Shown piece by piece: positions 16,478-45,239 of a DNA stretch of 64,000 nucleotides. The notes beneath the pieces are model-generated. The model searched no databases and was not told where the DNA came from. It was given only the letters and a program-made list of their open reading frames with translations. The stretch's first letter is position 1. Every line of letters begins with the position of its first letter. The stretch comes from Norana najaformis (taxonomy: Eukaryota; Annelida; Clitellata; Crassiclitellata; Hormogastridae), in the NCBI GenBank assembly GCA_964023275.1, contig OZ029914.1:48996530-49060529 (forward strand), written 5' to 3'. The position numbers and the translations under genes were made by a program.

Positions 16478-17224
16478 TTTGAAGTTTGAAATGTTCTATT
16501 ACACTGCAATGGTCATAATAACTTTCAAAATGTTCTTTTGTTTCGCATTACATAAAATGATTTTTTTAAAGATATGTATTATTATATTGGTTTGCTTATG
16601 ATCACTTTTGAATTGTTATGCTATTGTGTGTTTTGTTGACTAAATGCAATTGCATGTATTCTTGCTACTAAATTTTGAGCGTTTGTTTTGAAATAAAAAC
16701 GATTATTAACCTGCGTACATATCTTTTCGATTAAAATAATATACCTCTCTAAATCTCTAACCGACAGAAGAGAAATTCGGTACTCTCAGCTCTATATTAA
16801 ATGTTTTGCCAACTGTCTATTTCATTCCAACGACCTAGAACTCGCTTTCTATCCTGACCTTCATTCTTGTCTCTAGTACTCTCCAAAAGTCTTTTATTCA
16901 TGCTATTTAACCCTTTTGAGCGAATTACAAGAAACCACAGGTGTAAAGAGAAATAAAAACGCTAGAAACGTGATCTGTATGAAAATCTTTTTAAAAGCGT
17001 GATGGAAAACGTTGGTAGCTGAATGAGTAGAACAGGAAAGCCAAATTGGCATGGGTCGATGGCAATCGCGGTGACTTATAGAAGAAGGAAACACATCATG
17101 AAACATATAATGATGTTCAGTTTGGTAAGTATCCTGCAGTCTATTTGCAAATACTTTGACATTCATATAACGTCTTTTAAAGACGTCATGTGCCTTGTTT
17201 TGTCTTGTCTTTAATTTCCTCGAG

Positions 17225-17690
17225 CCGAGGGTTGGCCGCACCACGAACAATGCGATACCATCTGCGGCTGGTCCTCGTTTCTTGTAATTACTGGTCGAAC
17301 GATAATTCAGTCCACGACTTGATGTTGTCGATCCATGTCATCTATGGTTGTCCCTGAGCTCGAGATCCATACATTTTTCCTTGTATGACCTTTTTCCCAA
17401 AGCAGTCTCCAATCTTTCATAGCGTGAGACCGAAGTATGACAGGTTCCTCTATTTGATTAATCCTAGCCGACTCCTCTATATTCCTGCCGTCTCTAGGAC
17501 CCAATCGTTTGTCATCTTGGCTGTGCACGGTGCTTAACCATCCACCCCAGACACTTCATTTGAAATGCGTTGATTCTTGCCTCTTCATCTTTCTTTATGG
17601 TCCAGCACTCACAGTCATACTGTGCCACTGGCCATACAAGAGTTCTCAGAAGTTTTATGTTTTTTTGCAAGCGCTATGCCATGTGTGTTT
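17225..17690 (-). mobile_element. LINE 3' end (RTE/CFDP2-like), broken
   Basis: Minus-strand pieces include VWPVAQYDCE, INAFQMKC, LGPRD and the WIDNI-like region before the end, then RRWYRIVRGAANP. This is the same C-terminal order as the + strand fragment at 47350. It is repeated at 30683-31148 within the duplicated block. Confidence 0.65.
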
Positions 17691-18149
17691 CCGAGTTCTT
17701 AAATGCTGCCCAACACACTGTCCTTTTGCCAGTCTCCACCGAATCTCTCGACTGCACAGGCAGAGTCTTCGGTTATCAGTGAGCCAAGATTGGTATGCGG
17801 ACTGTTCATCAAAGGACGATTCATCAAAGGACTGTTCATCGAAAATGAGTTGAAACCTTTAACTTAGTGAATGGAATTTGTTTACTTTTGGCTTGAGTTG
17901 GGTTGCTTTATTTCATGTTAGATGAACTAAGTTTAAATTCTCTTGCATCCCCTCCGCCACCATCATTATCCATATATACCCCAGAGATTTTAAGTGGAAA
18001 CTTAAGCATAATCGTTACATGTCAATTGTAGTTCAGAACAGGCAGATTGCATTTCTTCAAGTTAGTTATTACGTCTAACGTATTACATTTCAATAGGAAA
18101 TAAATATGTTTTGATGAACAATCCTCTTGATGAACAGCCATGCTGAATC

Positions 18150-18500
18150 GTCTTCGCTTTGAGCGCTATCTTCGTCGGTCTTCGTCTATTGCTCTGTATT
18201 CGAGATCTCTGCCTGAGGCATGGTCTTCGCCTTGAGCGCTGTATTCAACGGTCTCCGCCCGAGGCGCCATCTTCGACGGTCTTACCCTGGGGCGCCCTTT
18301 CCGCTTGAGACACAATCCGACGGACGATCTCCGCCTAGGACCGTCCGCCGACGGAAATCGATCTCACAGCCGTAAAGTCCTGGACCACAAGGGTCCGGCC
18401 GAACCACCCCTCTCACACGAATTTTTGCGACATATTTTTGGCTGAGTTTTGCGTGAGTGCGATAGCCCAACAGTGGTGACTTTTCCAGCCATCTGCCCAT
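18150..18500. other. GC-rich block, unidentified
   Basis: Markedly richer in CG and CCG words than its surroundings. It has imperfect internal repetition of GTCTTCGC and TTGAGCGCT-type units at 18160-18280. A 72-codon minus-strand frame exists but matches nothing I recognise. An unidentified repeat or an upstream CpG-type region are both possible. Confidence 0.4.
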
Positions 18501-18584
18501 TACTGGTTTACAGATGAACTTGTTCTAATTAACTTTAACCTGCATAGGCTAGCGAGCGCAGCGTTAGGGAGAGGTGATTAAAAG

Positions 18585-18735
18585 ATGCTATGTGAAATGA
18601 TTTATTACGTGCATACATACATACATCCATGGGCCTACATACGTACACGGATGCATACAAACATTCATACGCACGTATATATGGATGAACGTACGTACAT
18701 ATGCACGTATATGCATAGGTCTACACACATGCATA
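18585..18735. repeat. Degenerate CATA-type simple repeat
   Basis: CATACATACATACAT grading into degenerate ACGTA/GCATA words. A second stretch lies at 19415-19550. Both produce spurious His/Thr/Tyr-rich frames. Confidence 0.8.
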
Positions 18736-18814
18736 CAATTTTTAGCTGCTGCAGCCTTGTCTCAATTTGAAACTTTTTAGCCAGTTAGAGGATTCATTTT
18801 CGCCTTGTCACAAA

Positions 18815-18826
18815 TGCGCATGCGCA
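18815..18826. promoter_or_regulatory. Candidate NRF1-type palindrome upstream of gene B
   Basis: TGCGCATGCGCA is a perfect palindrome matching the animal NRF1 consensus. It is about 320 bp upstream of the hydrophobic ORF at 19144. An identical site lies at 32273-32284 upstream of gene C. Function is inferred only. Confidence 0.35.
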
Positions 18827-19143
18827 GCATATTAGTCTATTTGTCGTGCAGGATTATCTCTTGCAGTGTAGTGGTTATTTGTTCTAACAGGGATGTCTGT
18901 CCCACGGCAACACTAGCTTTTATGCTTCTTGTAACGTCAGCCACTCTGCAGTAGGACTAAATATGGCTATTAGTTTCGAACGTTACGACATACGTATTTT
19001 TAAAACAACATTGCGAAGTATAAGCTCAGGTCACTAAGAACTGAACGTAAGCAAGCAGAGCTCTGGTCCGTGTTAGTAGTCTTACAATACAGCTTGCACA
19101 TCCCTCAGTTCACTTTAACGGATAACATCTGTTAACTGACTTC

Positions 19144-19218
19144 ATGATGTATCTATTGTTGTATGTTACAGCTATCTATTTTCTTTGTCAAGCAGTTTTC
19201 AATATATTATTGCGATGA
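19144..19218 (+). CDS. Candidate signal-peptide exon of gene B (boundary unresolved)
   Basis: The ATG opens MMYLLLYVTAIYFLCQAVF, a good hydrophobic leader, closed by a stop at 19216. The segment resembles gene A's signal exon at 3171 at DNA level (GCTATATTTG-like core). The possible donors are weak (T|GTCAAG in phase 1, A|GTTTTC in phase 0), so how it would join to the Ig1 exon is unclear. It may be an unused relic, with translation starting at 20215. Confidence 0.3.
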   Translation: MMYLLLYVTAIYFLCQAVFNILLR

Positions 19219-20182
19219 ATAGTTTACCAGCTACAAACCTCTTCCACGGTTAGTACGCTTTTCAATGGTAATTAATTACGATCAGAGCTTTACATTTTAT
19301 TATGGATCACTCTGACTCCGACCACGACCACCATAGTTTTACAACTGTTCCTCATTGTTTTCCAAATATTATGCACTCTAAGGATTTACCTTCTGTGTTC
19401 TTCGTCTATATACATACAATCATAATTTTATATACATAGGCACCTGTATACGTATTTACGCATATACATACAAGCATATGTATATGCATGCGTGTATGCA
19501 TACACATATACTTACCTGCATAATGCATACACATATGCATACATACAAAAGTCACAGTAGCTGTGAAATGCCTTCAACTGCCTATCTTTCACTCATACAA
19601 TTTGTATGTATGCTTCAGAAAAAGCAACACAAAGCTAGTCATTTTCTTAGTCATTTTCAGTGAATTTACTGTATGTCGGAAATCTGTTTGTATATAGACC
19701 ATAAATATAAATTAGCAGTAAAACAATCAACTATCCAATTGAAGTTTTACAAAATGAGCTGTATAAATGTTCATATGCATATATACCCTTGTTTTTAGCT
19801 TATGCGTCTTAGAAGGATTAAGTGTTGTAATTAAATTATTTTTCCCTGCGTTATAAATATGCTTCGGACCACAATTTTATTTAGCGCTTTTCAAGAATGT
19901 GTAAAAAGCCAAAATCAAACTGTTATTTCTCCCGATTTGTTCAGCTTTTCAGATGTTTCTCGTGTTTGCGATAGACTGCCAATTTGTCTCAGCTGATATA
20001 CAAAAAAGCTCAGAACTTAAGATTTATTGGTTAACACAATAATAACCACACAAGATAATATAACTACGGAGGATGTTATGTTTGAAGCTCTCACTGAAGT
20101 GTTGGCTAGTTTGTTTAGCCCGAACGTTTATAGGTAGAAGTACAGCGTAATTATTGGTGTATTCGTTACTTTTCTTGCACAG

Positions 20183-20572
20183 GTAGGCCCATCAGATCGA
20201 GATATGTGTTGATAATGGTTGCCTTGATCGTGCAGTATTACCACACGCTCACTGCACATTTAGCGAAACCGACGAATACAGTTTCCGTTGTGGGGAACAG
20301 AGCGAGAATGGAATGCAGTAGGAACCCGTCTGTGCTTCCGATTAATTGGGAATTTGCTTCAACCGGTTCCAATAATTTCTCCCGCATCTACACTAGTCGA
20401 CTTATAACAGCAAATCTCTCTTCGAGGTATAAGATCGGCACAGACGGCAAAACACGATACGATATCGTTATAGATTCTGTCGATTTGTCTCATGCTGGAA
20501 CATACAGATGCTCGCCTATTATCGAAGAATTTATAAAAGTGACATGGGATTCAGCCCAACTCGTGGTTCTAG
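20183..20572 (+). CDS. Gene B exon: leader plus V-like Ig domain (Ig1)
   Basis: Acceptor TTTCTTGCACAG, donor G|GTGAGA, phase 1 at both ends. The ATG at 20215 starts MVALIVQYYHTLTAHLA, a short hydrophobic leader ending in an AxxA-type site. The domain then has RMECSRN, PINWEF, a YKIGTDGKTRYDIVI D/E-strand region and DLSHAGTYRCSP (the classic DxGxYxC motif). The end is SAQLVVLG. NNFS and NLSS are glycosylation sequons. Confidence 0.8.
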
Positions 20573-23500
20573 GTGAGATAGTAAATACTTTTTTCAAATT
20601 ATCCATTTCTTGTTTCATACTTCAGTGCTGTTGATAGATTCGAAAGTGCTTTTTTAAATACTTTCATAAAATGCGGTATTGCATACCTAGGACCTACTGT
20701 AAGAGCCTGTACAAGCGGACGCAAATGCATTGTGAGAGAGCGCGAAGATTTTGTAGGAGTGGTCTGTTGTGGTTAACTTGAAAGTTTGAGTTGCAAATGT
20801 CGTTTATAGATGCATGCGCTTGGAAACTGTGATCATTCAAGTGCTGTTGTGATTGAACTGTTCGTTTTAATTAAAATTACGAAAATCAAAGACTTTACTC
20901 GGGTTAGCGTTTTGCTGCGAATCGGGCAATTCGACGGTTTCATGCCCGATTCTTGACAACTGCGAAACTCGTCGACGGTCACTTAGAACTGAATGTAAGC
21001 AAGCAGAGCTCAGATAACTAGAAAAGCCATCAGTGAAGGAGTCCCGCACAAACGCAGAGCCCAACCAACAAATTCATATCTACACTGTGTCCGGAAAAAT
21101 TCCAAGGCTCTAAAATATGAATGAAAAAACAATAGTAGATAATAATCAATTTAAAAACCTTTTTGATCCGTACATAATTACCAACAAAATTCTTTGTAAT
21201 TTATCAACGGCCTCCGTTTAAAATTACGTCACAGTGACGTATTTGAATTTTATATTTTGTAAAGAAAGTTGCTAGAAAAATGGCGTTCAGCGAGGAAGAC
21301 AAAATTGTTATAAAATTTTTACGCCAAAACAACAATTATAGTGCAAATAAGTTTCTGAAAGAATTTCCGGATAAAGGTTGGACATTAGGATTAAACTGTT
21401 TTTGGAATTTTAAAAATACAGTTTCCGTTGTGGGGAACAGAGCGAGAATGGAATGCAGTAGGAACCCGTCTGTGCTTCCGATTAATTGGGAATTTGCTTC
21501 AACCGGTTTCATATTTACCGTAAAGCCTTGGAATTTGTCCGGACACAGTGTAGAGTTGACAGATAACACCTCATTCAGAGTTCCTTGAGCGCGCTGTATA
21601 GAAGCCGATGAAGGCCGCAGCACACGATAACCTCGCTGTCCAGGAATCCTTCGCAGATGGTAGATGCCACAGCTGACACCAAGTTCATAGTTCCTGAACC
21701 GCGTTGTAGAGAAGAAGAGGAACAACAGCTGACAAAAAATAGCTGACGATGAAGTCCGCAGCAAACGATAGCCTCACCAGACAGCCGTCCCTCGCAGGTG
21801 GTAGACGCCACAGCGTCAGAATAGCTCTTGGATCACCACATTTGTGCAGGATAGACATACGTTACCATCCGGCCTGTTGATCGTAAAACCTCTCCATGAT
21901 TTATGGACAACACCACACCACACCAGAGGTTCTCCTCGTAGTTCCTTCACCATATCCAACATTTCCCTGTTGCAGACGGCCTGTAGATCTGAGGCTTGGC
22001 ACTGTCCAGCTAGGAACCTGTCAGCTTTCTGATTTTGTGAACTGGTCCAAATTTCGGAAAGAGTGCGATAACATGCGACGAAGCACAGTTGAAAAACTCA
22101 CGAATTCCACTCCAGAATCGACAAAACAATCTCGAAACGCAGATCAGTTACAGTAGAAGTCCAAACATTCAAGAACTATCGAGTAAATTCCCCATAGGAC
22201 CAAAAAATCAATCTGGATGGCGCCTCGATGCTGTTGATACGACGCTGGCAAGTACAGCTAAGCAACGACAAGCCCGACTTGTGCATGAAAGGGTGACCGC
22301 CCAGTGAATACTAGGCCACAATAGCCAATGCAACCCTCCTTCGTTTCGGGTATCCTGCTGTTGACTTGCTGTGGTCATGTTTTGCTCTTCAACCGAGACA
22401 TCCATCATAAGCTGAACCATCTACACCTTACTCACATAAAATGGTAAATATTGCGCCGACCTACTTATAATAGGGACTCGGTCTCCATTCTCTGGTTTGA
22501 TTTGTCACAGACCCCTCCACTTACAACAGCCAAGATGCTAAACTATCTATGTGGTAATAAGTACTTGGAACAGCACTATTTTCATTTATAAGCACTTAGA
22601 ATGCAAGAGTTAATGAAAATAGGTTTTCATCCTTGTTGATTCACAATTAGAGATGATATCAGCCTCATTATTGATCTGAAAATAATTGATCTCGAAAGAA
22701 CTTTAAAATAATTAAAGGTCTAAATATTTGCAGCCTCTGATCCTGTTTGCAAAACGAATGCAAGCGCTTTGAACGATATCTTCGTGGAAGGTGATTACAT
22801 TCGAATGTGGTGCACAGTCAACTTCAGTGGTAACTGGATTCCGGTCATGGAGTGGACCAAGAGTAACGGACAAACAGTTGATGCCAATATCTTTCATACT
22901 AGTACATCGACCACAGTAACATCGTCGTCGATAACACAGTTAAATTCAAATGACAATGGAGTTACGTTCACGTGCAAGACGACCATCAAACCAATGACCA
23001 CGTTTAACAGCACTACGAGACCAGGCGAAGCTTCTGCAACCAATGTTCCTCACTACCAGCACTTGTGGAATTTCAAGGCTAATGTATCATGTGAGTAATG
23101 AAATTTATGTTACAATTAACGCCTTTATGGTATGCGATGATTTTTCTAAGGTAGATACTTTGGAGATATCTGCACTATTGAGCATTTGTCAAAATTAAAG
23201 TCATATGCCCATTATAAAACTACTTAAACGTTCTTCGTAAATTTTAATGCAGTATCTCGATAAAATCTTTCATCGGACAATGTGTGACATTATTTTGTGC
23301 CAGCAAATAAGCCGCATATTGTTTCTTTAGTCCGAGTTTTGTTACCGTTTGGGTTGTGGCACAAATATGCGCGTTTACGTAATTACGAACAACATGACAT
23401 AAGATTTCCATTATTTCTATGCTTGTAATATTTTTGTATCCTCTTATTAACAAAGCACTGTATTCGATCATTGCTGAGCGCCGCTCCAGAACAGCGTTGG

Positions 23501-26115
23501 CTCTCGGTCGTTCTCGGTGGCTGATTAAAAAGTTAATTAAGAAGTCGCTGCTCGGTTCCTTAAAGTCATTTAAGTCTCAGCTTACTAAATCACTATTGCC
23601 TGGTTTTTGGTTTCTCTGATCCGTCAAATTACTACCGGATTTTGGTTGAAGATTACCATAAGTGGACCATCTACATGCTACTGTCGCTTGACATTTAATA
23701 TTGTTTGTGGGAACAGTTGTATCAATCGTTCCTTCTGTTTTTCGTGTCGATAAGTATTTTACATTTGGTTCTAACAAAGTCAATGACCTTGTTATAAAAT
23801 CATTACCATCCTGCTATTTATATGTCATTTTAGACCCATAATTATTTCCTTTTCTAGCTGCAATTATCTAAGACTTTGAATACTTTGCTAATCAGATGTA
23901 CCAAGAAATCTTACCATAATACCCTTGAAAAATACCAATGTGGTTGGTGATCGTCTAACGTGTTGGGCCAATGGAAACCCCACTCCAACCTATGAATGGA
24001 TGGAGATTGAAACACACAGAACCATTCCTGGATCCGTTCTAACAATCGACGACTACATGAGGTCGGATCAGAGTCACAGCTTCAACTGCACAGCATACAA
24101 CACTGTGGCTGGTCTTCGAAGACATGTTGCTCAAACGGCCACATTCACTGTAACAGGTAAATTCATTGCAATATTTTCATAAGGAAACATTTATTACTAC
24201 TGAACCTGAAAATAAAATGTAATACAAAAATACGAAGCTGTTTTAAACTTTCTTGCTGATGGGCCCAGAGGTAAAGCGAACATTTGATAGTTATCTAGAT
24301 CAGCTGCGATTTCTGCCAGAATCTAAGCTAAGCACATGACACCAGTTTATTGCTGAGCGTTGTGTCAAGTCGAAGGCGTTGATCAGAGATACTATTTTTA
24401 ATTGAAATCATAAGGAATAATAGATAGAGAGGCTTGAGGTTACTAATACGGGGTGGACAACAAGTGTGGTGGAGGGAACGAAGAATTAAAGAACTTCAGA
24501 CAGGATGTCATACTCCAATTATGATTTTATGCAGACTGAGTTGCACTTGAGGCACAGAACCTTATTGGATTGGTGATATTCTGTGCCCAAAATATGTCTC
24601 CACTCTACATCTAAAAATAGGGCATAAAACAAGCCCATAGATGGTTTGATTCTAACCTATACTTTTATATAGCCTACCAATATCAGTTTAAATCTGATAA
24701 ACAGTGGCCAACGCGCCAGATACATATTATAGGATTTTGTGACGGTGATAAATCTCTCTCAGCACAAACGAACATGTAAATAAAAGCGCACATTCACATT
24801 TTCTCGAAATAAGGTTTGAAGCTGGTTAATATCACTTGATAACCTGATGATAGGACCCACTGTGTTTTCTACACTTTGGTGATTATTGGAACAAATGGAA
24901 AATCCAATCTTAATCGTAAACTAGAGACTTGTACAGCGCCCATCGAAAACTGAGTCGCGAAACAAGCTTATTCACGGGCGCTCAGTCAAAACAAATTTGA
25001 TAGGCAAGAAGAGTTTCGTTCCAGGTCAAAATCCAAGGTTCGGGCAGGTAGGCAGCCAGAAGGATGCGGTGCGTGTGGTGTGGATTTTGTCCTGCAGGAT
25101 ATGTAAAGGAAGAACAGGAATCAGGATAGGATCTGCGGAAGAGGAGCGTTTTTAGTTAGGATTAGGGTTACTCCTGCTGAGAGATTGCAAAGAGTTAAGT
25201 GATGGTTAGTTCTTGTGATGGATCAGATAAGTGTTGTAATTCTTGTGGAAGTTTACTTCATCGCGTTGCTGTTGCTTTCCAGCGATTTCAGCATCGTCGA
25301 AAGCAGCTGCAGTGGTGTTAACCGTTGGTGGCGTGATGGCTGTCATCGCTCTACTTGTTCTTGGAATAGGAGTGGCGTTGACAGTTAAAGCATGCGCCAA
25401 AGGTTTGGTTTAAGTTTGACTTTTAAAATTTATTTATAGCTGTTTTACGTAAAATTTCTGGAAAATTACAGCAGTGATTGATGGAAATATTTGGAGGATT
25501 GGAACTCGTCATCTCGCTTTCTTGGGAAATAAGAAGTAGGACAATCGCCATCCGAAAGCCAATAAACAACCTAAATAAATCAGTTCATGCTCAATATTGA
25601 AACCTATTTTTGCATGAAATAGTTAGACCAATATCTGCGTAAAAACATAATCGGGATCTACGTGCGGGCATAACTTCCCAATTCAGACAATACAATAAGT
25701 TCGAGCATCAATCGCGTGCGAATGAACTTGTCCTTGACGAACACTGTCGTCATTCAGACTAAAGGTATTCAGGTAACTAGTTAAATTATATTACATTACA
25801 ATACGTTGTTTGCCATTTTTGGTGGGACTGGACCGTTTAGGAATTTCAGTGAATCCTAGAAGATCTCGTGAATCGTCTACTCAGCAACAAGACAATGAAA
25901 TGGTGAATGAATCCAATGTGCAGCCTGTAGACTCAGGCTATCCGCCTGTAGCCCCAAACACATCAAATGAAGTAGGCGTCAAAGATCAGTTGGCAGAAAA
26001 TATCGACTGTGAAGGTTACTGCTCACTGAAACGCAGCTCATCTGCCACTTTCGTACAACCAGCAGTATACGCTCAGTTACACCTATACGTAAACACTAAC
26101 TCCAACGACGACTAA
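20183..26115 (+). CDS. Gene B: three-Ig-domain receptor with tyrosine-motif tail
   Basis: The exons are 20183-20572, 22734-23090, 23896-24156, 25283-25402 and 25850-26115. From the ATG at 20215 they sum to 1362 nt (453 residues and stop) without a frame break. The order is leader, V-like Ig1, Ig2, C2/I-type Ig3, TM and an 88-residue tail. All introns are phase 1. The tail holds SGYPPV (fits the SxYxxV form of an ITIM), EGYCSL and AVYAQL, so it could recruit SH2-domain proteins once phosphorylated. The ectodomain is almost identical to gene C's while the TM and tail are not. It is the middle gene of a head-to-tail cluster. The start could instead be an upstream exon near 19144. Confidence 0.75.
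20775..21010. repeat. Conserved intronic block shared with gene A (6526-6740)
   Basis: Matches gene A's pre-Ig intron block: GAACTGTTCGTTTTA, AAAATCAAAGACT and ATTCGACGGTTTC-like words in order. A shorter related piece (AACTGAACGTAAGCAAGCAG) also occurs at 19040. Confidence 0.6.
21083..21550 (+). mobile_element. Mariner-like non-autonomous element carrying a captured Ig-exon fragment
   Basis: The ends are inverted repeats (CACTGTGTCCGG, then AAATTCCAAGGCT) flanked by TA on both sides (21081-21082, 21551-21552), the mariner target duplication. Inside, ATG at 21280 begins MAFSEEDKIVIKFL, then SANKFLKEFPDKGWTLG, the first helix-turn-helix of a common mariner transposase family. The frame then runs straight into about 94 bp (21415-21508) identical to 20275-20368 of the Ig1 exon (NTVSVVGNRARMECS to FASTG, in frame). 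The rest of the transposase is missing. The copy at 34541-35016 is 8 bp longer. Confidence 0.85.
21553..22440. repeat. Repeat-derived intron sequence with internal 75-bp repeats
   Basis: GATGAAGGCCGCAGCA (21607) and GATGAAGTCCGCAGCA (21748) start two related units of about 75 bp, 141 bp apart. At 22030-22160 a frame VNWSKFRKECDNM resembles the end of a LINE endonuclease region, but weakly. The higher GC content and many short frames suggest a decayed retroelement. Confidence 0.45.
22734..23090 (+). CDS. Gene B exon: second Ig domain
   Basis: Acceptor ATATTTGCAG, donor T|GTGAGT, 357 nt, phase 1 at both ends. Features are MWCTVNF (B cysteine), SGNWIPVMEW (core tryptophan; matches gene A), a Ser/Thr-rich middle and VTFTCKTT (F cysteine). 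An N-terminal extra cysteine (DPVCKTNAS) matches gene A's DLICSDSS. NAS, NFS, NST and NVS are possible sequons. Confidence 0.85.
23896..24156 (+). CDS. Gene B exon: third Ig domain (C2/I-like)
   Basis: 261 nt, phase 1 at both ends, donor G|GTAAAT. It starts VPRNLTIIPLKNTNVVGD, then RLTCWANGNPTPTYEW, DYMRSDQSHSFNCTAYNT and TATFTVT. This is a compact C2/I-type domain with the NGNPTPTYEW signature. It differs from gene C's copy at two residues: N in KNTNVV (Y in C) and H in ETHRT (N in C). Confidence 0.85.
24561..24790. repeat. Older diverged duplicate flank (pairs with about 38027-38400)
   Basis: After the near-identical block, words such as GGATTGGTGATATTCT, CATAGATGGTTTG, ATCAGTTTAAATCTGA and GAACATGTAAATAAA are still shared with gene C's intron. 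Many differences, and about 150 bp present only in C, separate the two. Confidence 0.75.
24915..25200 (-). mobile_element. LINE 3' end, CR1/L2-like, minus strand
   Basis: Reads from the 3' tail (AATCGTAAAC) through TACAGCGCCCAT, AGCTTATTCACG, GCGCTCAGTCAAAACAAA and CCAGGTCAAAATCCA. It matches the 3' end of the LINE at 58355-59800. It is 5'-truncated and sits just before gene B's TM exon. Confidence 0.75.
25283..25402 (+). CDS. Gene B exon: transmembrane segment
   Basis: Acceptor TTGCTTTCCAG, donor G|GTTTGG, 120 nt, phase 1 at both ends. Encodes ISASSKAAAVVLTVGG, then VMAVIALLVLGIGVALTV and KACAK. The long uncharged helix ends in a basic stop-transfer. Confidence 0.8.
25850..26115 (+). CDS. 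Gene B last exon: cytoplasmic tail with tyrosine motifs
   Basis: The acceptor GGAATTTCAG begins in phase 1, and the TAA is at 26113. The tail is Ser/Gln/Asn-rich with DSGYPPV, CEGYCSLKR and PAVYAQLHLYV. YCSL and YAQL are 13 residues apart, slightly longer than the usual ITAM spacing of 6-12. SGYPPV fits (S/I/V/L)xYxx(L/I/V). It ends NTNSNDD. Confidence 0.8.
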
Positions 26116-28030: not shown

Positions 28031-28040
28031 GGTATATTGA

Positions 28041-28374: not shown

Positions 28375-29214
28375 TCACTATATGCCTTCAAGAGTTTCAG
28401 TTATCGTGTGAACAAGGCTTGAACTAATACTAAACGCTTTTTCATAAAATATATGCATTAGGGTTTCACGGTAGAATAATTTACCAGTTTTCTCATAAAT
28501 TCGAGTACATTTAAGACATTTTATGTCGAGTATCTTGTGTCTTATATTTAGTTGTTGCATTCTTTTTGCTCTGACTGTTAATCTATATTGGTTCTATACA
28601 GAGATTTTCTATTAGATTTTCTTAGTTTTCAGTCAAAAAATTTAAGCTTATGTTTAAGTCACTTTATGTTGAGCATCCAGATATTATTTATTTTGCTTCG
28701 ATAGTACTTTTCTTTCTAGTTTTGTGTATATATATATATATATAATGTTCTAATAGACTCTCTTGAATCCGTTGTGTAAGTACATTAAACCACTGCTTAA
28801 ATTCGTTAAGAATCTAATATAGTAACGTGATTTTCAGAAGCCCATAATAAATGGCAGTTGGAAAATTATTGTCTCACATGGATAAACAATAGCAAGGATG
28901 TTAATTCCATTAACGTTTTTGGGAAGTGTTCAAAAGGGGTTATATTAAAGTTTTTTACACTACATTTCAGCTATCTCTTTCAGGCGAATCATTTATATGG
29001 CATGGTCTGTAAATTAGTTTCTGCATGTGATGCAATGGAGTCATTTATCCATTTGCATTTAGCTGAATTCGCCTCTATAACTGAAGGGAATCATATCCCT
29101 GCAATTGGTTTATTTTATGTATCGTTTTCACATCAAAGTGATACCTGAATCTATCAGCATGATGCTTATCTTTTCATATAGCCTCAAGATTTTCTGTTAT
29201 CGTGTATAGAAAGA
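28375..29214. repeat. Diverged partial copies of the pre-duplication flank
   Basis: GCCTTCAAGAGTTTCAG with AACTAATACTAAACGC at 28380-28440 and again near 29180-29240, both related to 15630-15680. It suggests several older local duplications upstream of gene C. Confidence 0.55.
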
Positions 29215-32272: not shown

Positions 32273-32284
32273 TGCGCATGCGCA
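32273..32284. promoter_or_regulatory. Candidate NRF1-type palindrome upstream of gene C
   Basis: TGCGCATGCGCA, identical to 18815-18826. Confidence 0.35.
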
Positions 32285-32601: not shown

Positions 32602-32676
32602 ATGATGTATCTATTGTTGTATGTTACAGCTATCTATTTTCTTTGTCAAGCAGTTTTCAATATATTATTGCGATGA
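32602..32676 (+). CDS. Candidate signal-peptide exon of gene C
   Basis: Identical to 19144-19218 (MMYLLLYVTAIYFLCQ). The same unresolved splice question applies. Confidence 0.3.
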   Translation: MMYLLLYVTAIYFLCQAVFNILLR

Positions 32677-33640
32677 ATAGTTTACCAGCTACAAACCTCT
32701 TCCACGGTTAGTACGCTTTTCAATGGTAATTAATTACGATCAGAGCTTTACATTTTATTATGGATCACTCTGACTCCGACCACGACCACCATAGTTTTAC
32801 AACTGTTCCTCATTGTTTTCCAAATATTATGCACTCTAAGGATTTACCTTCTGTGTTCTTCGTCTATATACATACAATCATAATTTTATATACATAGGCA
32901 CCTGTATACGTATTTACGCATATACATACAAGCATATGTATATGCATGCGTGTATGCATACACATATACTTACCTGCATAATGCATACACATATGCATAC
33001 ATACAAAAGTCACAGTAGCTGTGAAATGCCTTCAACTGCCTATCTTTCACTCATACAATTTGTATGTATGCTTCAGAAAAAGCAACACAAAGCTAGTCAT
33101 TTTCTTAGTCATTTTCAGTGAATTTACTGTATGTCGGAAATCTGTTTGTATATAGACCATAAATATAAATTAGCAGTAAAACAATCAACTATCCAATTGA
33201 AGTTTTACAAAATGAGCTGTATAAATGTTCATATGCATATATACCCTTGTTTTTAGCTTATGCGTCTTAGAAGGATTAAGTGTTGTAATTAAATTATTTT
33301 TCCCTGCGTTATAAATATGCTTCGGACCACAATTTTATTTAGCGCTTTTCAAGAATGTGTAAAAAGCCAAAATCAAACTGTTATTTCTCCCGATTTGTTC
33401 AGCTTTTCAGATGTTTCTCGTGTTTGCGATAGACTGCCAATTTGTCTCAGCTGATATACAAAAAAGCTCAGAACTTAAGATTTATTGGTTAACACAATAA
33501 TAACCACACAAGATAATATAACTACGGAGGATGTTATGTTTGAAGCTCTCACTGAAGTGTTGGCTAGTTTGTTTAGCCCGAACGTTTATAGGTAGAAGTA
33601 CAGCGTAATTATTGGTGTATTCGTTACTTTTCTTGCACAG

Positions 33641-34030
33641 GTAGGCCCATCAGATCGAGATATGTGTTGATAATGGTTGCCTTGATCGTGCAGTATTACC
33701 ACACGCTCACTGCACATTTAGCGAAACCGACGAATACAGTTTCCGTTGTGGGGAACAGAGCGAGAATGGAATGCAGTAGGAACCCGTCTGTGCTTCCGAT
33801 TAATTGGGAATTTGCTTCAACCGGTTCCAATAATTTCTCCCGCATCTACACTAGTCGACTTATAACAGCAAATCTCTCTTCGAGGTATAAGATCGGCACA
33901 GACGGCAAAACACGATACGATATCGTTATAGATTCTGTCGATTTGTCTCATGCTGGAACATACAGATGCTCGCCTATTATCGAAGAATTTATAAAAGTGA
34001 CATGGGATTCAGCCCAACTCGTGGTTCTAG
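33641..34030 (+). CDS. Gene C exon: leader plus Ig1
   Basis: No difference from gene B's Ig1 exon was seen. ATG at 33673; same DLSHAGTYRC motif and phase-1 ends. Confidence 0.8.
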
Positions 34031-37000: not shown

Positions 37001-40000
37001 AATTAAGAAGTCGCTGCTCGGTTCCTTAAAGTCATTTAAGTCTCAGCTTACTAAATCACTATTGCCTGGTTTTTGGTTTCTCTGATCCGTCAAATTACTA
37101 CCGGATTTTGGTTGAAGATTACCATAAGTGGACCATCTACATGCTACTGTCGCTTGACATTTAATATTGTTTGTGGGAACAGTTGTATCAATCGTTCCTT
37201 CTGTTTTTCGTGTCGATAAGTATTTTACATTTGGTTCTAACAAAGTCAATGACCTTGTTATAAAATCATTACCATCCTGCTATTTATATGTCATTTTAGA
37301 CCCATAATTATTTCCTTTTCTAGCTGCAATTATCTAAGACTTTGAATACTTTGCTAATCAGATGTACCAAGAAATCTTACCATAATACCCTTGAAAAATA
37401 CCTATGTGGTTGGTGATCGTCTAACGTGTTGGGCCAATGGAAACCCCACTCCAACCTATGAATGGATGGAGATTGAAACAAACAGAACCATTCCTGGATC
37501 CGTTCTAACAATCGACGACTACATGAGGTCGGATCAGAGTCACAGCTTCAACTGCACAGCATACAACACTGTGGCTGGTCTTCGAAGACATGTTGCTCAA
37601 ACGGCCACATTCACTGTAACAGGTAAATTCATTGCAATATTTTCATAAGGAAACATTTATTACTACTGAACCTGAAAATAAAATGTAATACAATAATACG
37701 AAGCTGTTTTAAACTTTCTTGCTGATGGGCCCAGAGGTAAAGCGAACATTTGATAGTTATCTAGATCAGCTGCAATTTCTGCCAGAATCTAAGCTAAGCA
37801 CATGACACCAGTTTATTGCTGAGCGTTGTGTCAAGTCGAAGGCGTTGATCAGAGATACTATTTTTAATTGAAATCATAAGGAATAATAGATAGAGAGGCT
37901 TGAGGTTACTAATACGGGGTGGACAACAAGTGTGGTGGAGGGAACGAAGAATTAAAGAACTTCAGACAGGATGTCATACTCCAATTATGATTTTATGCAG
38001 ACTGAGTTGCACTTGAGGCACAGAACATCACTGGATTGGTGATATTCTACGCTCAAAATATGCCTACGATCCCGTGCCTAAAACTGGGCGGTTTGAGATG
38101 TAGCTTACAGCTGCGAACGTCGTAATTATTCTTCAAGCAAATCCATAAATATTTCGAAAGTTGCTAATGGCACATGTCGGCCAATTTTTTATTTGCTAAT
38201 TATTATGTTGTGTTCGGCTGATGGTTAATATAGAGCACAAAAACAGATTCATAGATGGTTTGCTTGTAACCTAGACTTTAACCTTGCCTTCCAGTATCAG
38301 TTTAAATCTGAAAACAGTGGCCAGCTTGTCAGATGCATTTTATAAGATTTTGTGATGGCTATAAATCTCTCTCGTCACAAAGAACATGTAAATAAAGGAA
38401 CTCACATTCATAACTTTGCTAAACATCATCATTTACAGCCGAATAAAATCGTTTCAATCTAATCTTTACTGAAAAGAAACACATAATTAAGAACCTTTTC
38501 TTATTATAGTTTTAATTATATTTGTTTCGTATTCTTTTTCAATCATGATTCTGGCATAAAAGACGAATTTAATCGAGCTTCCTTTGTAATATCTTTTGAA
38601 TTGTGTCTTTTTTATCAATAAAGACTTTTGTGTATGGTTCTCTTTTGAGACTTTTCTGGAATTTTATGAAGAGTAAATTCTATTGCAAAATATTTATCTG
38701 ATACCACGAAAGTCTTACGAACGTGTTAAATAAACTGTTACATTCTATGTCAAATTACAGGGGAATCTCAAAATGCGACAGATCAGTACACCATGATCGC
38801 TGTAATAGTTGTTGGATCAGTCTGCTGCTTAGTATTAGGATTGTGTATTTGCAGTACCCGATGCCCTTTCATAAAAGGTAGGCGCTTTTTGTTTCCATAA
38901 CCAGGTATTTAATTAATTAGGCTATAAAATGTTAACCTATCCTCGTGTGTTCGGTCAATGTGTGTCCGAGACTCTATTTACGCTTTCTGAGGATGTTGTG
39001 CGCACTTGGACGATGTTTGGACATCTCCTATTGCCAGCATCGCCCTACACGATGATACATGGGTCCAGCTAATATGCACTATCTCCGATCGTAATCGTAT
39101 TAATAAACTCTAGATTTCTGCAGCGCCCAACAAAAGCCAAATCTCAAGAACCAGCTTATTCGGAGGCGCTCAGTCAAAACAAAATCGGTAGGCCGGAAGT
39201 GTTCAGTTCCAGGCTAAGATCCAAGAGTCACGCAAGGAGACAGTCGGTGGTGGTTGGAATTGGAGCGGAAAGAGAGACAAGGGGAAGAGGAAGAATCAGG
39301 ATAGCAGCTGTAGAAGAGGAATGTTTTCAATTTTGAATGAAAGACAAGCGCACAGATTTTGGATTCTGGGTGGATTCTGCACGTGTCATGCGCAGCTAAA
39401 CTCAGTTGGACAATGCTGTTCCTGATGTCATATGCCTATTGTAACGGGAAAATAATGGTTTTCATATGGTGAGCCTCATGAGGACATCGAGTTCCGCTTC
39501 GGTCGGCGCTCAACGATTTTCTTGTACATCAAAAAACAGAGGACATGATGCTTCAGGCGCATCTTTTAACTCTGGAATGATTGCTCGCATCTTCGAGCGC
39601 TTAGTTCAGTTCGGTGTAATTCTGTCTCCTCGCCGCAATCCGGACTTGGGACTCTGAATACGAGTCAGTTATCGACCGTGGATGGAATTCGTTGGCTGAC
39701 ATATGTCTGCGTGAGGAGTTTTCTAGAAACATGAATATCATTCTTCTCATCTTATACAAGCAAACTTTTTCTGCAACTCTACCGCCCGTTAGGCCAGTGT
39801 CAGGGGCTTTGGTGAGGGTATTAAAGGCGAAATCTAATTCCCGAGATACATAATGTACATACCAATACCTAGTCTCAATTATTGCATTGCATTACTGTGC
39901 ATCGCACAACGTCATATTGCTATCCCTCAAAGGCGAAATGTCTGGTTTTAGCTTGCTTCAACGAGAAATTGCTTCTTTACGACAAACTTTCAAAGCCATA

Positions 40001-43000
40001 AATTGTTGTAAGCATAAGTTGCAGCTTTAATTCGCGATTAATATGTTTCTGTATAACATGCACATTTTGTTTTCTTTCAATTGATAGCACGTGCTGGACC
40101 AGATATTCTTCGTGCAGCTCAAAGGAACTCTTATGGTAAGGACTCAATAACTTTCCTGTAAACGACTAAAGTTCGTTAAGTTTGGGAATTGGTCCACTAT
40201 TATGCATGGATGTTTTTTTCTGTATAGATTCTTAGAGTTAACATAAGTATTAAGATGTTAGCCAAAATGTTCACACTAACCTTGTGTTTTGTCTTAATTG
40301 ATTCAACTTGTTGATATAATTTGTCTGTCTGTCTTATGAAACATTTTTCACTATGGGTGTTTCTTCTAAAGTCGTTGCAGGATTTTATGAAGAGTTAATT
40401 AAACATAACTGACTTTACACAAATGCAGCAGAGTCATTCGAAGACCAGTCAGGAGGTCGAGTGCGCGCTGTGCAAGCGACGCAACCACTAGAAGCTGAAG
40501 GCAAGAACTGTTAAATTAATACGCGTTGATGATAGCAAAACGATTATTTTCACCCATAGTCAGTTAATGAAGACTATCGATTTGTTCACGTCTGAATCAC
40601 ATGTTAGGAATGACAACTGCAATCTGATAAAAGCGGGACTCATGATTAGCACTTCTGTGATCTTTAATGAAAGCCAGAGGAAAGCCAAAGATATAGTCAA
40701 TTAGAATATTTGAACCCTGTTTGGCTAAGCTCTATGACTGCAAAGGCTATTTGAAACAAGTTGTTTGTCTGCCCTATTTGGTCAGTGACAGATACAAATA
40801 TTGATTTATTTATTGATGGTTAACGAATTAATAACTATGAGCCAAACTGTCATAATAGGAATACAAATGGCATAATAGATTTTTCCATGAAAACACTATG
40901 CTTGTTATTTTCATTTTATCGGATATTTTCAGGCTACAGTTTGCAACAAAGACATCCATTTCCAGTTTACGCAGAAGTTCGAAGAAAAGTACATAGTAAG
41001 TATAATCCTGAATTAGCCTAGTTATCAAGAGAAAATTATTTTGTGGTAACACGTTATCTTTAGTTTTTGTTAAAACGAACGCAAAATTACAATATAGCTC
41101 TACATTTCATACTCTAACCATTTGTGTTATATTGTTGTATCATTCTCATCGATGCTTGATAAAATTTTGAGGAATTTTGCATATTGTCTAGGTAGGCCGA
41201 TGCCTCCTTCCATAAAGGGTTAGACAAACAAACCAAAATAAACACATTAACATTGAAATCTTTAAGATCACATTTGGGGCCATAATCTCACTCGATAATC
41301 TGCCCCTAGCGTTCCCTATGCCGACGCCAGTTTGTGTGCAATTGTTACAGAATGAGCAAATACTGAACATATTCTGTTACTAGCATCTATCGCCGATGGC
41401 TCCGATTGTCAGCCAATGAATCTGGGTTATGATGTTGTAAAACAAGAAACAAGCGGTTGGTTTTACTTTTACATTTCTAGTCAGGAATGACATCTTCAGC
41501 CAAACATGAATTTCATTATCTGCTCAACAATCACCCAAACACAATGCCAGAAGCTGATCCACTCTCTCTCTTTCTCTGTCTTTAAGTCTCTCTGTCAATC
41601 TCCCTCTCTCTCTTGCTTCTTTCTTTCAGTCTCTCTGTTTCTAGATGAAATAGATTGCGACGTATGACAGGTTCTTAAAACACGTCATTCAAATACCCAA
41701 ATGCATACATAGGTCTTATTTTGTTTCCAAGGCGAAGAACCGTGTTTAGTTCACGAGGAGGCAGTTGGCTGTCTACCAAAACAACAAGATTTACCAGTCT
41801 ACACGGAAGTTGTGAAAAATCGTACAGGTTAATGATGGAGTCGAGTCTAGGTCTTTTGCAATTTAGCATAAGGTAGCATCATTTCCAGCAGCTTTCTAAG
41901 GAGTTGCCCATCTGAATATTAAATGTCTTCACGCTGGATACTGTTTTATTTTCAACTACACTCGAATTCAGAACCGTCAGTTATTCACAACCTGTTCCTC
42001 CCATTAGCTTGCTTCCTTGATTTTATTGGTTCTCTGGCCTTATCCTGGCATTTGACCGAGCGTCATTAAGGAGTCTTCTTAGTTAAGTGTAGAAATATTT
42101 CATGAGCTGAATAAAAAATATCTCAGCTGATGTTTGTGATTTCGTACAACCTGCCAAAACACACCGGGTTGCACTGTTACACATCTATTTTGTATGGAAT
42201 TTGTGCCTACAGGGTCAAAGAATTCGGAAGAGTACCGCCAGACTGTTAAAGCCTCTGCAACTGAATATCATTCGCCAAAAAAGGTGCCATTTCTACTTGG
42301 ATTATTTCCCAATTTGTTTAATCGTTTTCATATTTGCCTAATGTAAACAGCAAAAACACACGTTACTGATCAATCCCTCTTTGTGCAGGGCTAGATCCCA
42401 AAGTCTTGACCACTACTTTTCTTCATACAATTAGCCAACGAAAAATGTCACATATTGCCCTAACGATTTTGCCGAATTAATATAATACCTTTTCATCAAG
42501 CATATATATTCTCAATTATGTACTAGTCTGGACTGCTACCAGGCCATGACTCCAGCAGCGGAATGCGCTTTTGCTTCAGCCAGAATTTGACGGCCTTTGT
42601 ACTATGACGTGATGCACCACGTCCTGTTGGAAGTGACTGATGTCATGGATGTTGATGAAGTTCGGCATTTCCATTTCAGGATGTTCAGATACACGGTTCC
42701 ATTTATTGTGGTGTTCTTGGACATTATGTACAGCCCCAGCCCGTCCAGCACCCCTTCGGTGCCTGCTTCAATGCCGATATGACATGCTTAGGATTATGCC
42801 TTTGGTTAATTGATCTCCTCAACATGCCTGCAGAAACAGTAATACTGTGTGAAAGTACTCTTATTCGAAAATATTACGCGCTGCCACTGTTCAGAACTCC
42901 GCCGTTTGTACTTATGAATGAAGGTCAGCCGATCCTTTACGTTCTTTTGTGACAGCTTTGGTTTTTGTGCCGGACGAAACGACTGCATACCAGCATCGAA

Positions 43001-45239
43001 TAGTCTTCTTTGAATTGTTCTGTTGCTGAGTTTCTTGTCTGGAGACCCAGGTAATCTGGATGTAATCACACTTGAAGATGCCTTGGGTGAAAACTTTGCA
43101 GTCTTCACAATCGCGATGTCAATCCGCATGGTAGTCACCTTCGGTCTCCTACAGCGATGCCGTGATTTCAAGTTGTGTTGTTCAGTCACCCTTTTCACTG
43201 TAGCAACAACAGTTGAATGAGCCACCTTCATCTTCTTAGCAATCTCTCTACTGGGCATCTTCTATTTGTATAATATGAATATTTGTGTGCGCTTTTCTGG
43301 GTGAGCTGTCTTCCACGGACAATGGTCATCTCTGCAATGCACACAAAGGCAGTTGAACTCAGAGGATCTCTCTCAAAAAGAGATAACTAATATGCATTAA
43401 TATTACACAGTAATTCAAATTTTACCTATTATCGCTAACACAGCACAAATTATGTAGTTCATTTACTTTAAAATTGAAATAAAATCCGTAAAACGGTAAG
43501 TATATTAGAATACCAACCTTCATACAGCTTCTTGCCGGAAACGACAGTAAACAGGGATAAAATGATCAAAATATGAATTTTAAAACTATTTTCCAACTAT
43601 TTAACATAGTAGCAATCCGTTGTGACAAAGCTTATAGCAAAAGAAGCACACTAACTAAGAAAAATAGCTCCGAAAGAGCCAAACACCACCAGAACATTGG
43701 AAAATGTGCCAAAAAGTGTATGGTTGCCAACTTTTGGCCATGACTGTATATATATATAATGTTTATAGATATATTCAAATGCACACATCTACACATGCAC
43801 ACATACATACATACATACATACATAAACCTATAAGCATACATACATCCAAGGGCTGACCTGTTACCTCACATAACCACGATAAGTGGGTTTAAGCACAAG
43901 TGACAGAATTGTAACCCAACATAGAAACATGAAAGCTGAACTTAGGGCTAGTATGTAGAATAACAGTTTAACAAAGGCATAGTTTAGGCTTCATGCTGTT
44001 TGTTTTACATATTCTGAAAGTACAGCCTTTTTAAGCTGTAAATTTCCAGGTGTTGATATTTTAAATACTAAAATATGCGCAGTTTCTGCAAGGCCAGTGC
44101 TTAGTTATTTGGTGAGATGATTAAACAAACATTCTGCTTTGGGAAAAACTCAGTAAAAACGATAGTGTTCAATTTTAAAACCGGCTTTCGGCCTCAAAGT
44201 AGAAGCTAACTTTTGAGTTGCAATTGCCCCTACAGCTGCTTTTTCATTAACTAATTGGCCAAAGATGAAGCTTCGTGATGTTTACGATTGAGCATCAAAT
44301 AAACAAAATAGAAAATGAAATCAAATCTCGTACTAAGCTAAAACACTAGTTGAAAATAAAAGTAAAAGCATCACGAAGCATTATAGGCAACAACGGCAAT
44401 AACATATCCAATACACATCCCTTTGCTTTCCTGTCAACACGAACACTCCTTCCCTCTCCCTCTCTCCTGCAGCTTTTCACTCAAAACCGAACTCTTCAGT
44501 CTATCCTATCCTGCTTCTGCTCATACACCATCTCATCACTACTATCACCAGCGATTTCCACCGTAGCACCATTCTGTCTGCCCAGCTTGGCCCTTCCCTC
44601 GGATACTGACCAGGTCACAAAATTGACCAATCAACCTGGCTCTTGTGGATTTGGTTTGATATAACGCCGGAGAATAAGCTTGTCTCTCTGAAGCGGCTTT
44701 TGTGGGGCGCTGAGAATTTCGGAAAGTTGCATTTACATTTACAATCCAGTGGATGGGCTTGGAATTTAATCTTTTCAGCGTAAGAGTTTACGTAACATAA
44801 TGCCTGATGGCATATTAGTGAAGCAGTTATGGATATGAAATGTTTGTTACCTTAATGAAAGGTAATCATGTTAACCTACAGTCAAACATTTGACTGACAT
44901 ATTCTAGCATCATGCAAGTAATGTCTGCCTTTAAATTACACTGATTTTGCTTTGCTTCTTAGCAGAGTTTGTCTTTGAACGTCTATATTATATGTAAAGG
45001 CCTCCTGACTGAGAGAGTTAGTGAGTTACCGAGCAATATCATTTCCAAAGAAATTAACCTTGCCTTTTTAGACTATCAATGGAGCTGATGGAACGCAGTA
45101 CTTGGATGTGACTTCGATACGTGGTCCGAACTCAAGAGCTCCGTTCAGACATCCTCCGATGTTCAGTGTAGTGGAGACTTACGCAAGCATCGATCACACA
45201 TTCGGTGATCCACCACCTCTTCCGCCTAAACAACACTGA
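33641..45239 (+). CDS. Gene C: three-Ig-domain receptor with long multi-motif signalling tail
   Basis: The exons are 33641-34030, 36200-36556, 37362-37622, 38761-38877, 40088-40135, 40429-40500, 40933-40995, 41732-41827, 42213-42283 and 45072-45239. From the ATG at 33673 they sum to 1611 nt (536 residues and stop) in one frame. The ectodomain is nearly identical to gene B's. The TM differs, and the tail of about 190 residues has GYSLQ, PVYAEV, PVYTEV, TQYLDV (exact TxYxxV ITSM form), ETYASI and a final PPPLPPK that fits a class II SH3 ligand (PxxPxK). Introns are phase 1 until the last, which is phase 0. One intron is GC-AG. Its signalling sense (activating or inhibitory) cannot be told from sequence. 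Confidence 0.75.
34541..35016 (+). mobile_element. Mariner-like element with captured Ig fragment, duplicated copy
   Basis: Same element as at 21083-21550 with TA at 34539-34540 and 35017-35018. An 8-bp tandem insertion makes it 476 bp. It shares its insertion site with copy 1, so it was duplicated or converted with the block and did not insert separately. Confidence 0.85.
36200..36556 (+). CDS. Gene C exon: Ig2
   Basis: No difference from gene B's Ig2 exon was seen. SGNWIPVMEW core; donor T|GTGAGT. Confidence 0.85.
37362..37622 (+). CDS. Gene C exon: Ig3
   Basis: Differs from gene B at two coding sites, both changing the residue: KNTYVV (KNTNVV in B) and ETNRT (ETHRT in B). The second creates an N-glycosylation sequon, NRT. 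Confidence 0.85.
38027..38755. other. Gene C intron between Ig3 and TM: diverged flank then unique sequence
   Basis: Up to about 38400 it aligns patchily with 24561-24790. After that there is AT-rich unique sequence with no recognised element. Confidence 0.5.
38761..38877 (+). CDS. Gene C exon: transmembrane segment
   Basis: Acceptor CAAATTACAG, donor G|GTAGGC, 117 nt, phase 1 at both ends. Encodes ESQNATDQYTM, then IAVIVVGSVCCLVLGLCI and CSTRCPFIK. The helix is cysteine-rich and unlike gene B's. NAT is a sequon just outside the membrane. Confidence 0.75.
39095..39350 (-). mobile_element. LINE 3' end, CR1/L2-like, minus strand
   Basis: TCGTAATCGTA tail, then TTTCTGCAGCGCCCAACA, CAGCTTATTCGG and GCTCAGTCAAAACAAAAT, the same family as 58355-59800. 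It lies after the TM exon, so it is independent of the fragment before gene B's TM exon. Confidence 0.75.
39360..40080. other. Gene C intron, nothing recognised
   Basis: No exon or repeat supported. A 63-codon frame at 39466-39657 is unremarkable. Confidence 0.4.
40088..40135 (+). CDS. Gene C cytoplasmic exon 1
   Basis: 48 nt, acceptor TCAATTGATAG, donor G|GTAAGG, phase 1 at both ends. Encodes RAGPDILRAAQRNSY; its tyrosine ends the exon. Confidence 0.6.
40429..40500 (+). CDS. Gene C cytoplasmic exon 2, followed by a GC-AG intron
   Basis: 72 nt, acceptor ACAAATGCAG, phase 1 at both ends. The donor is AAG|GCAAGA, a typical GC-type donor, and no GT fits the phase. Encodes ESFEDQSGGRVRAVQATQ then PLEAE. 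Confidence 0.55.
40933..40995 (+). CDS. Gene C cytoplasmic exon 3 (VYAEV motif)
   Basis: 63 nt, acceptor ATATTTTCAG, donor A|GTAAGT, phase 1 at both ends. Encodes YSLQQRHPFPVYAEVRRKVH. It contains YSLQ, a YxxQ form, and VYAEV. Confidence 0.7.
41732..41827 (+). CDS. Gene C cytoplasmic exon 4 (VYTEV motif)
   Basis: 96 nt, acceptor TGTTTCCAAG, donor G|GTTAAT, phase 1 at both ends. It ends QQDLPVYTEVVKNRT, parallel to FPVYAEVRRKVH of the previous exon, which suggests exon duplication. A pyrimidine-rich tract (41555-41640) lies upstream. Confidence 0.7.
42213..42283 (+). CDS. Gene C cytoplasmic exon 5
   Basis: 71 nt, acceptor TGCCTACAG, donor AAG|GTGCCA, phase 1 in and phase 0 out. Encodes SKNSEEYRQTVKASATEYH then SPKK. 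The donor is modest but its phase fits the last exon. The region is duplicated downstream at 46470. Confidence 0.6.
42530..43746 (-). mobile_element. Tc1-like DNA transposon, decayed and 3'-truncated
   Basis: The minus-strand frame 42806-43258 reads MPSREIAKKMKVAHSTVVAT (paired helix-turn-helix), KLSNRTIQRRL and WQRVIFSNKSTFT (first catalytic D changed to N, where the usual form is FSDE). Pieces further on (TTINGTVYLNIL, then decayed QQDGA and PLLEWPG-like parts) continue to about 42530. The 5' terminal repeat (GGCCATGACTGTA seen from the + strand, ending about 43746) abuts TATATA. It lies in gene C's last intron. Confidence 0.8.
43747..43850. repeat. TA/CATA simple repeat
   Basis: ATATATATAAT, then CACACATCTACACATGCAC and CATACATACATACAT. 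It has a counterpart at 46730-46790 in the downstream relic. Confidence 0.8.
43923..44215 (+). pseudogene. Relic of a gene-A-type 3' end inside gene C's last intron
   Basis: Aligns with gene A's 3' UTR at 13296-13590: ACATGAAAGCTGAACTT, AGTTTAGGCTTCATGCTG, CTGAAAGTACAGCC and GCTGTAAATTTCC. The matching last coding exon just upstream is not recognisable. It may mark an older end of the gene or an alternative polyadenylation region. Confidence 0.6.
44440..44745 (+). mobile_element. LINE 3' end, CR1/L2-like, plus strand
   Basis: GCTTTTCACTCAAAACC, then GAATAAGCTTGTC and GGCTTTTGTGGGGCGCTG match the reverse complement of the LINE 3' end at 58355. It is 5'-truncated. Confidence 0.65.
45072..45239 (+). 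CDS. Gene C last exon: ITSM-like motif and SH3 ligand
   Basis: Acceptor CTTTTTAG, phase 0, 55 codons and TGA. Encodes TINGADGTQYLDVTSI, then FSVVETYASIDHTF and GDPPPLPPKQH. TQYLDV matches the TxYxx(V/I) switch motif known from SLAM-family receptors. ETYASI is a YxxI site. PPLPPK fits PxxPxK. This is the most motif-dense exon in the window. Confidence 0.75.
   Translation, partial: TINGADGTQYLDVTSIRGPNSRAPFRHPPMFSVVETYASIDHTFGDPPPLPPKQH

Follow-up and report, generated by a model that had tools for sequence, protein, structure and literature searches.

Two adjacent genes of the immunoglobulin superfamily (IgSF), B and C, in the 64-kb stretch of DNA analyzed here (the window) are predicted to encode one ectodomain joined to two unrelated tails. 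As the best explanation of the whole, and one that we regard as about equally likely to hold or to fail, we suggest that an older duplication and a later gene conversion gave rise to two receptors that would be co-expressed and recognize the same ligand. The window contains no N and has the character of animal DNA, with intron-split immunoglobulin (Ig) domains and decayed transposons. Exons were placed on the basis of reading frames and splice contexts. Both genes lie on the + strand in a coherent splice-phase chain, their modelled junctions preserve the frame and both coding chains are open; the modelled introns are all phase 1, except for the last intron of gene C, which is phase 0. The exons, including those for the transmembrane (TM) segments and tails, are:

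20183-20572, + strand: gene B Ig1 exon, V-set, phase 1-1 (splice model and Pfam V-set)
22734-23090, + strand: gene B Ig2 exon (splice model and Pfam Ig_2)
23896-24156, + strand: gene B Ig3 exon (splice model and Pfam Ig_3)
25292-25402, + strand: gene B TM exon, hydrophobic core uncharged, weak donor GTTTGG
25841-26115, + strand: gene B single tail exon with SGYPPV, EGYCSL, VYAQL, YVN and stop
33641-34030, + strand: gene C Ig1 exon, identical to that of B
36200-36556, + strand: gene C Ig2 exon, identical to that of B
37362-37622, + strand: gene C Ig3 exon, differing from B by two missense substitutions
38761-38877, + strand: gene C TM exon, hydrophobic core uncharged
40088-40135, + strand: gene C tail exon 1
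40429-40500, + strand: gene C tail exon 2, GC donor, free of tyrosine
40933-40995, + strand: gene C tail exon 3, PVYAEV
41732-41827, + strand: gene C tail exon 4, PVYTEV
42213-42283, + strand: gene C tail exon 5, phase 0 end, weak donor
45072-45239, + strand: gene C last exon (tail exon 6) with TQYLDV, ETYASI, PPLPPK and stop

The identity profile was obtained by aligning 15630-24840 with 29191-38455. In a core of 8.08 kb the two copies differ by 12 substitutions in 8,082 aligned bases (0.15%; 99.85% identity) and by two indels of 1 and 8 bases, one of which lies in a T run. A preliminary description of the region had reported Ig1 and Ig2 exons without difference and Ig3 exons that are nearly identical, and the alignment bears this out (0 of 747 and 2 of 261 bases different, respectively). 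What that description did not contain is that the introns and 3.7 kb of upstream DNA are equally identical: the core spans 3.7 kb 5' of Ig1, the three Ig exons with their introns and the beginning of intron 3, and position 16478, at which the description began, is its left edge. At both ends of the core, identity drops sharply into DNA that is still collinear and homologous. The segments are:

15630-16477, + strand: left flank of copy B, old homology, collinear with 29191-29936 (626 of 736 positions identical, 85.1%)
16478-24560, + strand: near-identical block, copy B (alignment)
24561-24840, + strand: right flank of copy B, collinear with 38027-38455 (209 of 276 identical, 75.7%)
29191-29936, + strand: left flank of copy C (blastn and alignment)
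29937-38026, + strand: near-identical block, copy C (alignment)
38027-38455, + strand: right flank of copy C, including approximately 150 bp that B lacks (alignment)
16246-16449, no strand: inverted repeat with 37-nt arms, 92% complementary, and a 130-nt loop, 28 bp left of the copy B core edge

The aligned flanks differ at 110 of 736 positions on the left and 67 of 276 on the right, counts that take in poorly alignable pieces; by blastn the identity is 86.3% on the left (628 columns, 15630-16247) and 77% on the right (226 columns). The old homology is detectable up to approximately 24840 in B and 38455 in C, about 450 and 305 bases, respectively, 5' of the TM exons. No third copy of the flanks was found in the window by self-blastn (E 1e-10, rows of more than 60 columns): 15630-16247 has 29191-29810 as its sole partner and 24614-24796 has 38227-38410, apart from one weak match of 43 bp.

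We considered selection on the exons as the cause of the identity and rejected it, given that the introns are just as identical: 2 of 1,008 bases differ in Ig1-Ig3 together and 10 of 7,074 in the remainder of the core, and because the exonic share of the differences (2 of 12) is close to the exonic share of the length, the shared ectodomain is by itself no sign of exon selection. For the same reason the shared ectodomain need not mean selection for one recognition surface; recent homogenization or duplication would suffice.

The three Ig exons were supported to different degrees by Pfam. The open reading frame (ORF) over Ig1 (20134-20634) matches V-set (E 3.4e-07, 30.9 bits, cut-off 26) and that over Ig3 (23892-24182) matches Ig_3 (E 1.1e-07, 32.7 bits, cut-off 30); the ORF over Ig2 (22724-23098) matches Ig_2 at 24.5 bits (E 3.2e-05), under the cut-off of 27. 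Among Protein Data Bank sequences, the best 60 of 494 matches of Ig1 are mostly antibody light chains (best E 1.1e-05), which indicates a V-set domain and nothing further, and Ig2 has 7 matches up to E 1, the best at 0.074. AlphaFold2 gave a mean predicted local distance difference test score of 41.2 for Ig1 alone and of 42.7 for Ig2 aligned with the Ig2 of gene A, a neighbouring gene described below. A sushi domain was not found by Pfam at E up to 1 in the exon ORFs scanned, i.e. those over Ig1, Ig2 and Ig3 of B and over Ig2 and Ig3 of C; the models matched there were those for Ig and, weakly (E 0.1), DSCAM FN3. Counted from the first position of the Ig1 exon, the modelled ectodomain of B comprises 336 aa with eight N-glycosylation sequons. 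Both differences in Ig3 are missense, N>Y and H>N, and the latter creates N-R-T, giving C one sequon more than B. An in-frame ATG is present in the Ig1 exon at 20215, and the residues after it form a moderately hydrophobic run.

The TM and tail modules of B and C are without clear relationship; the preliminary description had called them unrelated. The local score of the two TM exons is 28, attained in 50 of 1000 shuffles, and that of the tails is 27 against a shuffle mean of 28.9, attained in 644 of 1000. The tail of B has 91 aa in one exon and that of C 172 aa in six; the seven tail-coding pieces previously counted in C fit these six exons plus the TM exon. In B a motif scan of the tail recovered the three YxxL/V sites ascribed earlier to its tail exon: SGYPPV has the strict form of an immunoreceptor tyrosine-based inhibitory motif (ITIM), EGYCSL is similar to a hemi-immunoreceptor tyrosine-based activation motif (hemITAM), one residue off DGYxxL, and VYAQL is the third; YVN (YxN), of the Grb2 type, is also present. 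A classical ITAM in B was considered and rejected, with YCSL and YAQL 13 residues apart. The tail of C is without a strict ITIM. The immunoreceptor tyrosine-based switch motif (ITSM) form and the SH3 ligand proposed for it were found as TQYLDV, which fits the ITSM, and PPLPPK, which fits a class II ligand. Besides TQYLDV this tail has three YxxV/I sites, PVYAEV, PVYTEV and ETYASI, the first two of which are alike and lie on the neighbouring tail exons 3 and 4. Three of the four tyrosines in B and four of the eight in C lie in a YxxPhi context; of 20,000 shuffles, 286 reached the count of B and 361 that of C.

Combining the identity profile with the comparison of the tails, we suggest a history in two steps: (i) an older duplication, at least of 15630-24840 to 29191-38455, would have put the cassette of Ig1-Ig3 exons in front of another TM/tail module, and (ii) a recent interlocus gene conversion would have replaced 8.08 kb of one copy by the sequence of the other, the 3.7 kb upstream included. 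We favor conversion over a simple recent tandem duplication because the identity produced by the latter would end at unrelated DNA, and a conversion tract bounded by two exchanges would directly explain why identity ends within older homologous DNA. With a mean of 6.26 kb given for putative human conversion events (PMC10172114), a tract of 8 kb is not excessive. Because the tract would have taken in 3.7 kb upstream of Ig1, B and C probably share most of their promoter sequence. Duplicated coding exons should match at least as well as intron flanks, and the tails do not; we therefore infer that the cassette was joined to another tail, that one tail was replaced or that the tails diverged unusually fast.

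Old structural change is present in both flanks, with a segment that matches in inverted orientation on the left and the approximately 150 bp of C-only DNA on the right. Part of the inverted repeat beside copy B matches the copy C side inverted (blastn 16245-16375 / 29909-29779), and the search for inverted repeats gave none in 29150-30050 on that side. Seven pairs of inverted repeats with arms of at least 30 nt within 300 nt were found in the window, four of them in one TA-rich tract. That the inverted repeat at the edge of copy B triggered the conversion is a conjecture.

With regard to function, we suggest that both receptors would be found together on the same cells with a ligand in common, that B would signal via its hemITAM-like/YxN tail (Syk or Grb2 type) and that C would signal via a tail with an ITSM, YxxV sites and an SH3 ligand (SHP-2 or SAP type). 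Opposed signalling from the shared ligand is what we infer from this arrangement. The assignment of B as activating and C as inhibitory or switching is made with low confidence because B has the only strict ITIM.

Several observations weigh against this interpretation. The evidence comes from one assembly, and conversion is proposed on the basis of a single sequence. No convincing first coding exon was found in 16479-20183 when the interval was searched from ATG to donor with at least 7 of 9 donor positions matched, although seven candidates were returned. The score of the TM exons lies somewhat above the shuffles and a very distant shared origin of these exons is conceivable. Charged residues in both TM exons are confined to the edges and neither hydrophobic core carries a charge. 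A classical ITAM (YxxL/I, 6-12 residues, YxxL/I) was matched in neither tail, EGYCSL deviates from the hemITAM consensus, given as DGYxxL (PMC3819593), and the gene that we lean to as activating is the one with the strict ITIM, so that the motifs are not cleanly opposed.

The gene models also include several weak splice sites, which count on the same side: tail exon 2 of C depends on a GC donor, the donors of the B TM exon and of C tail exon 5 match at 6 of 9 positions, and the acceptor of B Ig2 is pyrimidine-poor (0.44). With the splice thresholds set strictly (acceptor 0.6, donor 7), the + strand of the 6.4-kb C-tail region gave two candidate exons with [VIL]YxxPhi, which are tail exons 3 and 4, and five control stretches gave none. 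At looser thresholds (acceptor 0.44, donor 6) the same strand gave four candidates, three of which are variants of one exon, and the controls gave four and three on the two strands of an 18.7-kb 3' stretch and none in the other three. Because of these candidates in the 3' stretch, the signal for C-tail exons is weaker than the strict figure implies. The argument is carried mainly by tail exons 3, 4 and the last; the placement of exons 1, 2 and 5 comes from phase and splice context alone.

Four other explanations were weighed. The one that survives best, unlikely though it seems to us, concerns function and is compatible with the conversion history: like the Alr of Hydractinia or the FcoRs of Botryllus, B and C could act in allorecognition or adhesion and recognize a self ligand that is polymorphic, instead of being paired receptors for a common ligand of host or pathogen origin. 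The V-set first domain and the clustering of the genes fit with this, as do the ITIM and hemITAM-like motifs in the tails, which are reported for FcoRs and Alr candidates (PMC12065747); FcoRs, however, have a sushi domain, and none was matched in the scanned Ig exon ORFs. Slightly less probable again is ordinary recent copying without paired function, in which one gene would be redundant and bound to diverge or decay, and the different tails would be incidental. Introns that match as well as exons are in agreement with this possibility, and two exonic differences that are both missense and both in Ig3 are compatible with relaxed constraint; against it, the two genes have open coding chains and usable splice signals and the YxxPhi count in each tail is above that of most shuffles. 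We regard as improbable that the assembly has placed the reads of one ectodomain block twice or joined two haplotypes in tandem. A difference of 0.15% is inside the range of ordinary heterozygosity and the indel in the T run points the same way, but the flanks adjoining the block show differences of 15% and 24% as well as structural ones, the two tails are wholly different and the window is free of N. A single complex transcription unit, with tail isoforms in which read-through or alternative splicing links either ectodomain to either tail, is very improbable, for although the genes are tandem and co-oriented and the phase 1 introns (except the last of C) would permit in-frame exchange of B and C exons, B ends in a terminal exon and stop of its own, 3.1 kb short of where the left flank of C begins, and a second ectodomain copy would be superfluous.

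Upstream of B lies gene A, a third and more distant IgSF-like gene (7371-13251), with the following parts:

about 7371-7728: gene A first exon, Ig-like by eye, no match in Pfam
9840-10163: gene A Ig2, 29% identical to B Ig2, the only part of the gene with Pfam support, which is below cut-off
10877-10987: gene A TM exon, in phase
11878-11936 and 13195-13251: gene A candidate short two-exon tail, in phase, with one tyrosine in SYAI-stop and no YxxPhi

A search for YxxPhi exons for the tail of gene A gave none that was convincing. If the candidate tail is correct, the cluster holds three different TM/tail modules.

Within the block, a 97-bp piece of the Ig1 exon (20275-20371) recurs 1.1 kb 3' in the next intron (21415-21511) with one mismatch. 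The same duplication is present in copy C (33733-33829 and 34881-34977) and, because it is identical in both block copies, it probably predates homogenization. The intron copy sits inside an ORF at 21247-21588 without a Pfam match, the start of which resembles a transposase N-terminus. A dispersed repeat family, with copies about 69-83% alike at 24906-25234, 39088-39358, 52544-53348, 58359-58691 and 63671-63999, is represented 5' of the TM exon in B and 3' of the TM exon in C. The last intron of C contains a Tc1/mariner-type transposase fragment (42806-43261, - strand; Pfam HTH_Tnp_Tc3_2, E 1.2e-14). Elsewhere in the window there are a 581-codon open frame at 55748-57493 (- strand) and reverse transcriptase-like remnants at 58522-59804 (- strand) and 929-1575, of which 929-1575 and 59090-59764 are about 80% alike; these remnants are long interspersed nuclear element-like, and Pfam gave no match for 58522-59472. 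Neither tRNAs nor, at the Rfam gathering threshold, RNA families were found in the window.

Should the locus prove real and non-vertebrate, the paired arrangement, with outer parts held alike by conversion and tails free to differ, would have arisen independently of mammalian leukocyte receptors and would not depend on adaptor-coupled partners. In that case the locus would also constitute a natural experiment in which nearly the same outer part, with two residue differences, one of which adds a glycosylation site, is combined with two different tails. Tentatively, and with doubt outweighing expectation, we suggest that a non-vertebrate animal may evolve receptors by the movement of a self-contained cassette (upstream DNA plus Ig1-Ig3) before unrelated TM/tail modules, and that the cassettes may be held similar by long conversion tracts with a possible starting point in the palindrome next to the block edge; one ligand would then be read via two arms, one hemITAM-like and one of the ITSM/SH3 kind, without an ITAM adaptor. 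A literature search by title and opening of abstract, the coverage of which did not extend to most subscription journals, returned no conversion-linked paired IgSF receptors in an invertebrate.

In the KIR, PIR and SIRP families the tail of the activating member is short and a charged residue in its TM segment binds an ITAM adaptor, and the activating partner of the Siglec-11/16 pair is of the adaptor-coupled type. The short-tailed, charged-TM member of vertebrate paired receptors has no counterpart in B or C. The likeness to vertebrate paired receptors drawn in the preliminary description holds in part: the genes are adjacent and co-oriented, have the same three-Ig ectodomain with two different modules and have more YxxL/V/I sites in each tail than most shuffles, but a charged TM core is lacking and tyrosines are present in both tails.

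The closest profile is that of Siglec-11/16 in primates, viewed as inhibitory and activating paired receptors, in which the upstream region and first exons have been homogenized by gene conversion over about 2 kb at 97-99% identity in every species examined and the remainder is less alike (PMC5701461). In B and C, by contrast, the block is 8.08 kb, both tails contain tyrosines and the TM cores are uncharged; and the case for conversion rests on cross-species trees in Siglec-11/16 and here on the identity profile of one sequence. Similarly, the ectodomains of CD300A and CD300C in primates are held alike by gene conversion while their signalling diverges; the short tail of CD300C and the charged glutamate in its TM segment are absent from both B and C (PMC12447643). 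Among invertebrate systems, Botryllus FcoRs are described as clustered type I IgSF proteins with long tails and possible ITIM, hemITAM or YxxI/L/V motifs, as in B and C, but combine a V-type Ig domain, a sushi domain and two C2-type Ig domains (PMC12065747), in place of which B and C have three Ig exons, none with a match to sushi. Hydractinia Alr are likewise clustered IgSF genes with V-set and I-set domains, for which ITIM/ITAM motifs are reported second-hand (PMC12065747, PMC11999971). As far as the sequence tells, the anatomy of the B/C locus is paired-receptor-like without the adaptor-coupled feature of the vertebrate type, and it has in common with vertebrate paired receptors adjacent genes, near-identical Ig ectodomains, different cytoplasmic modules and an island of identity between flanks of lower identity.

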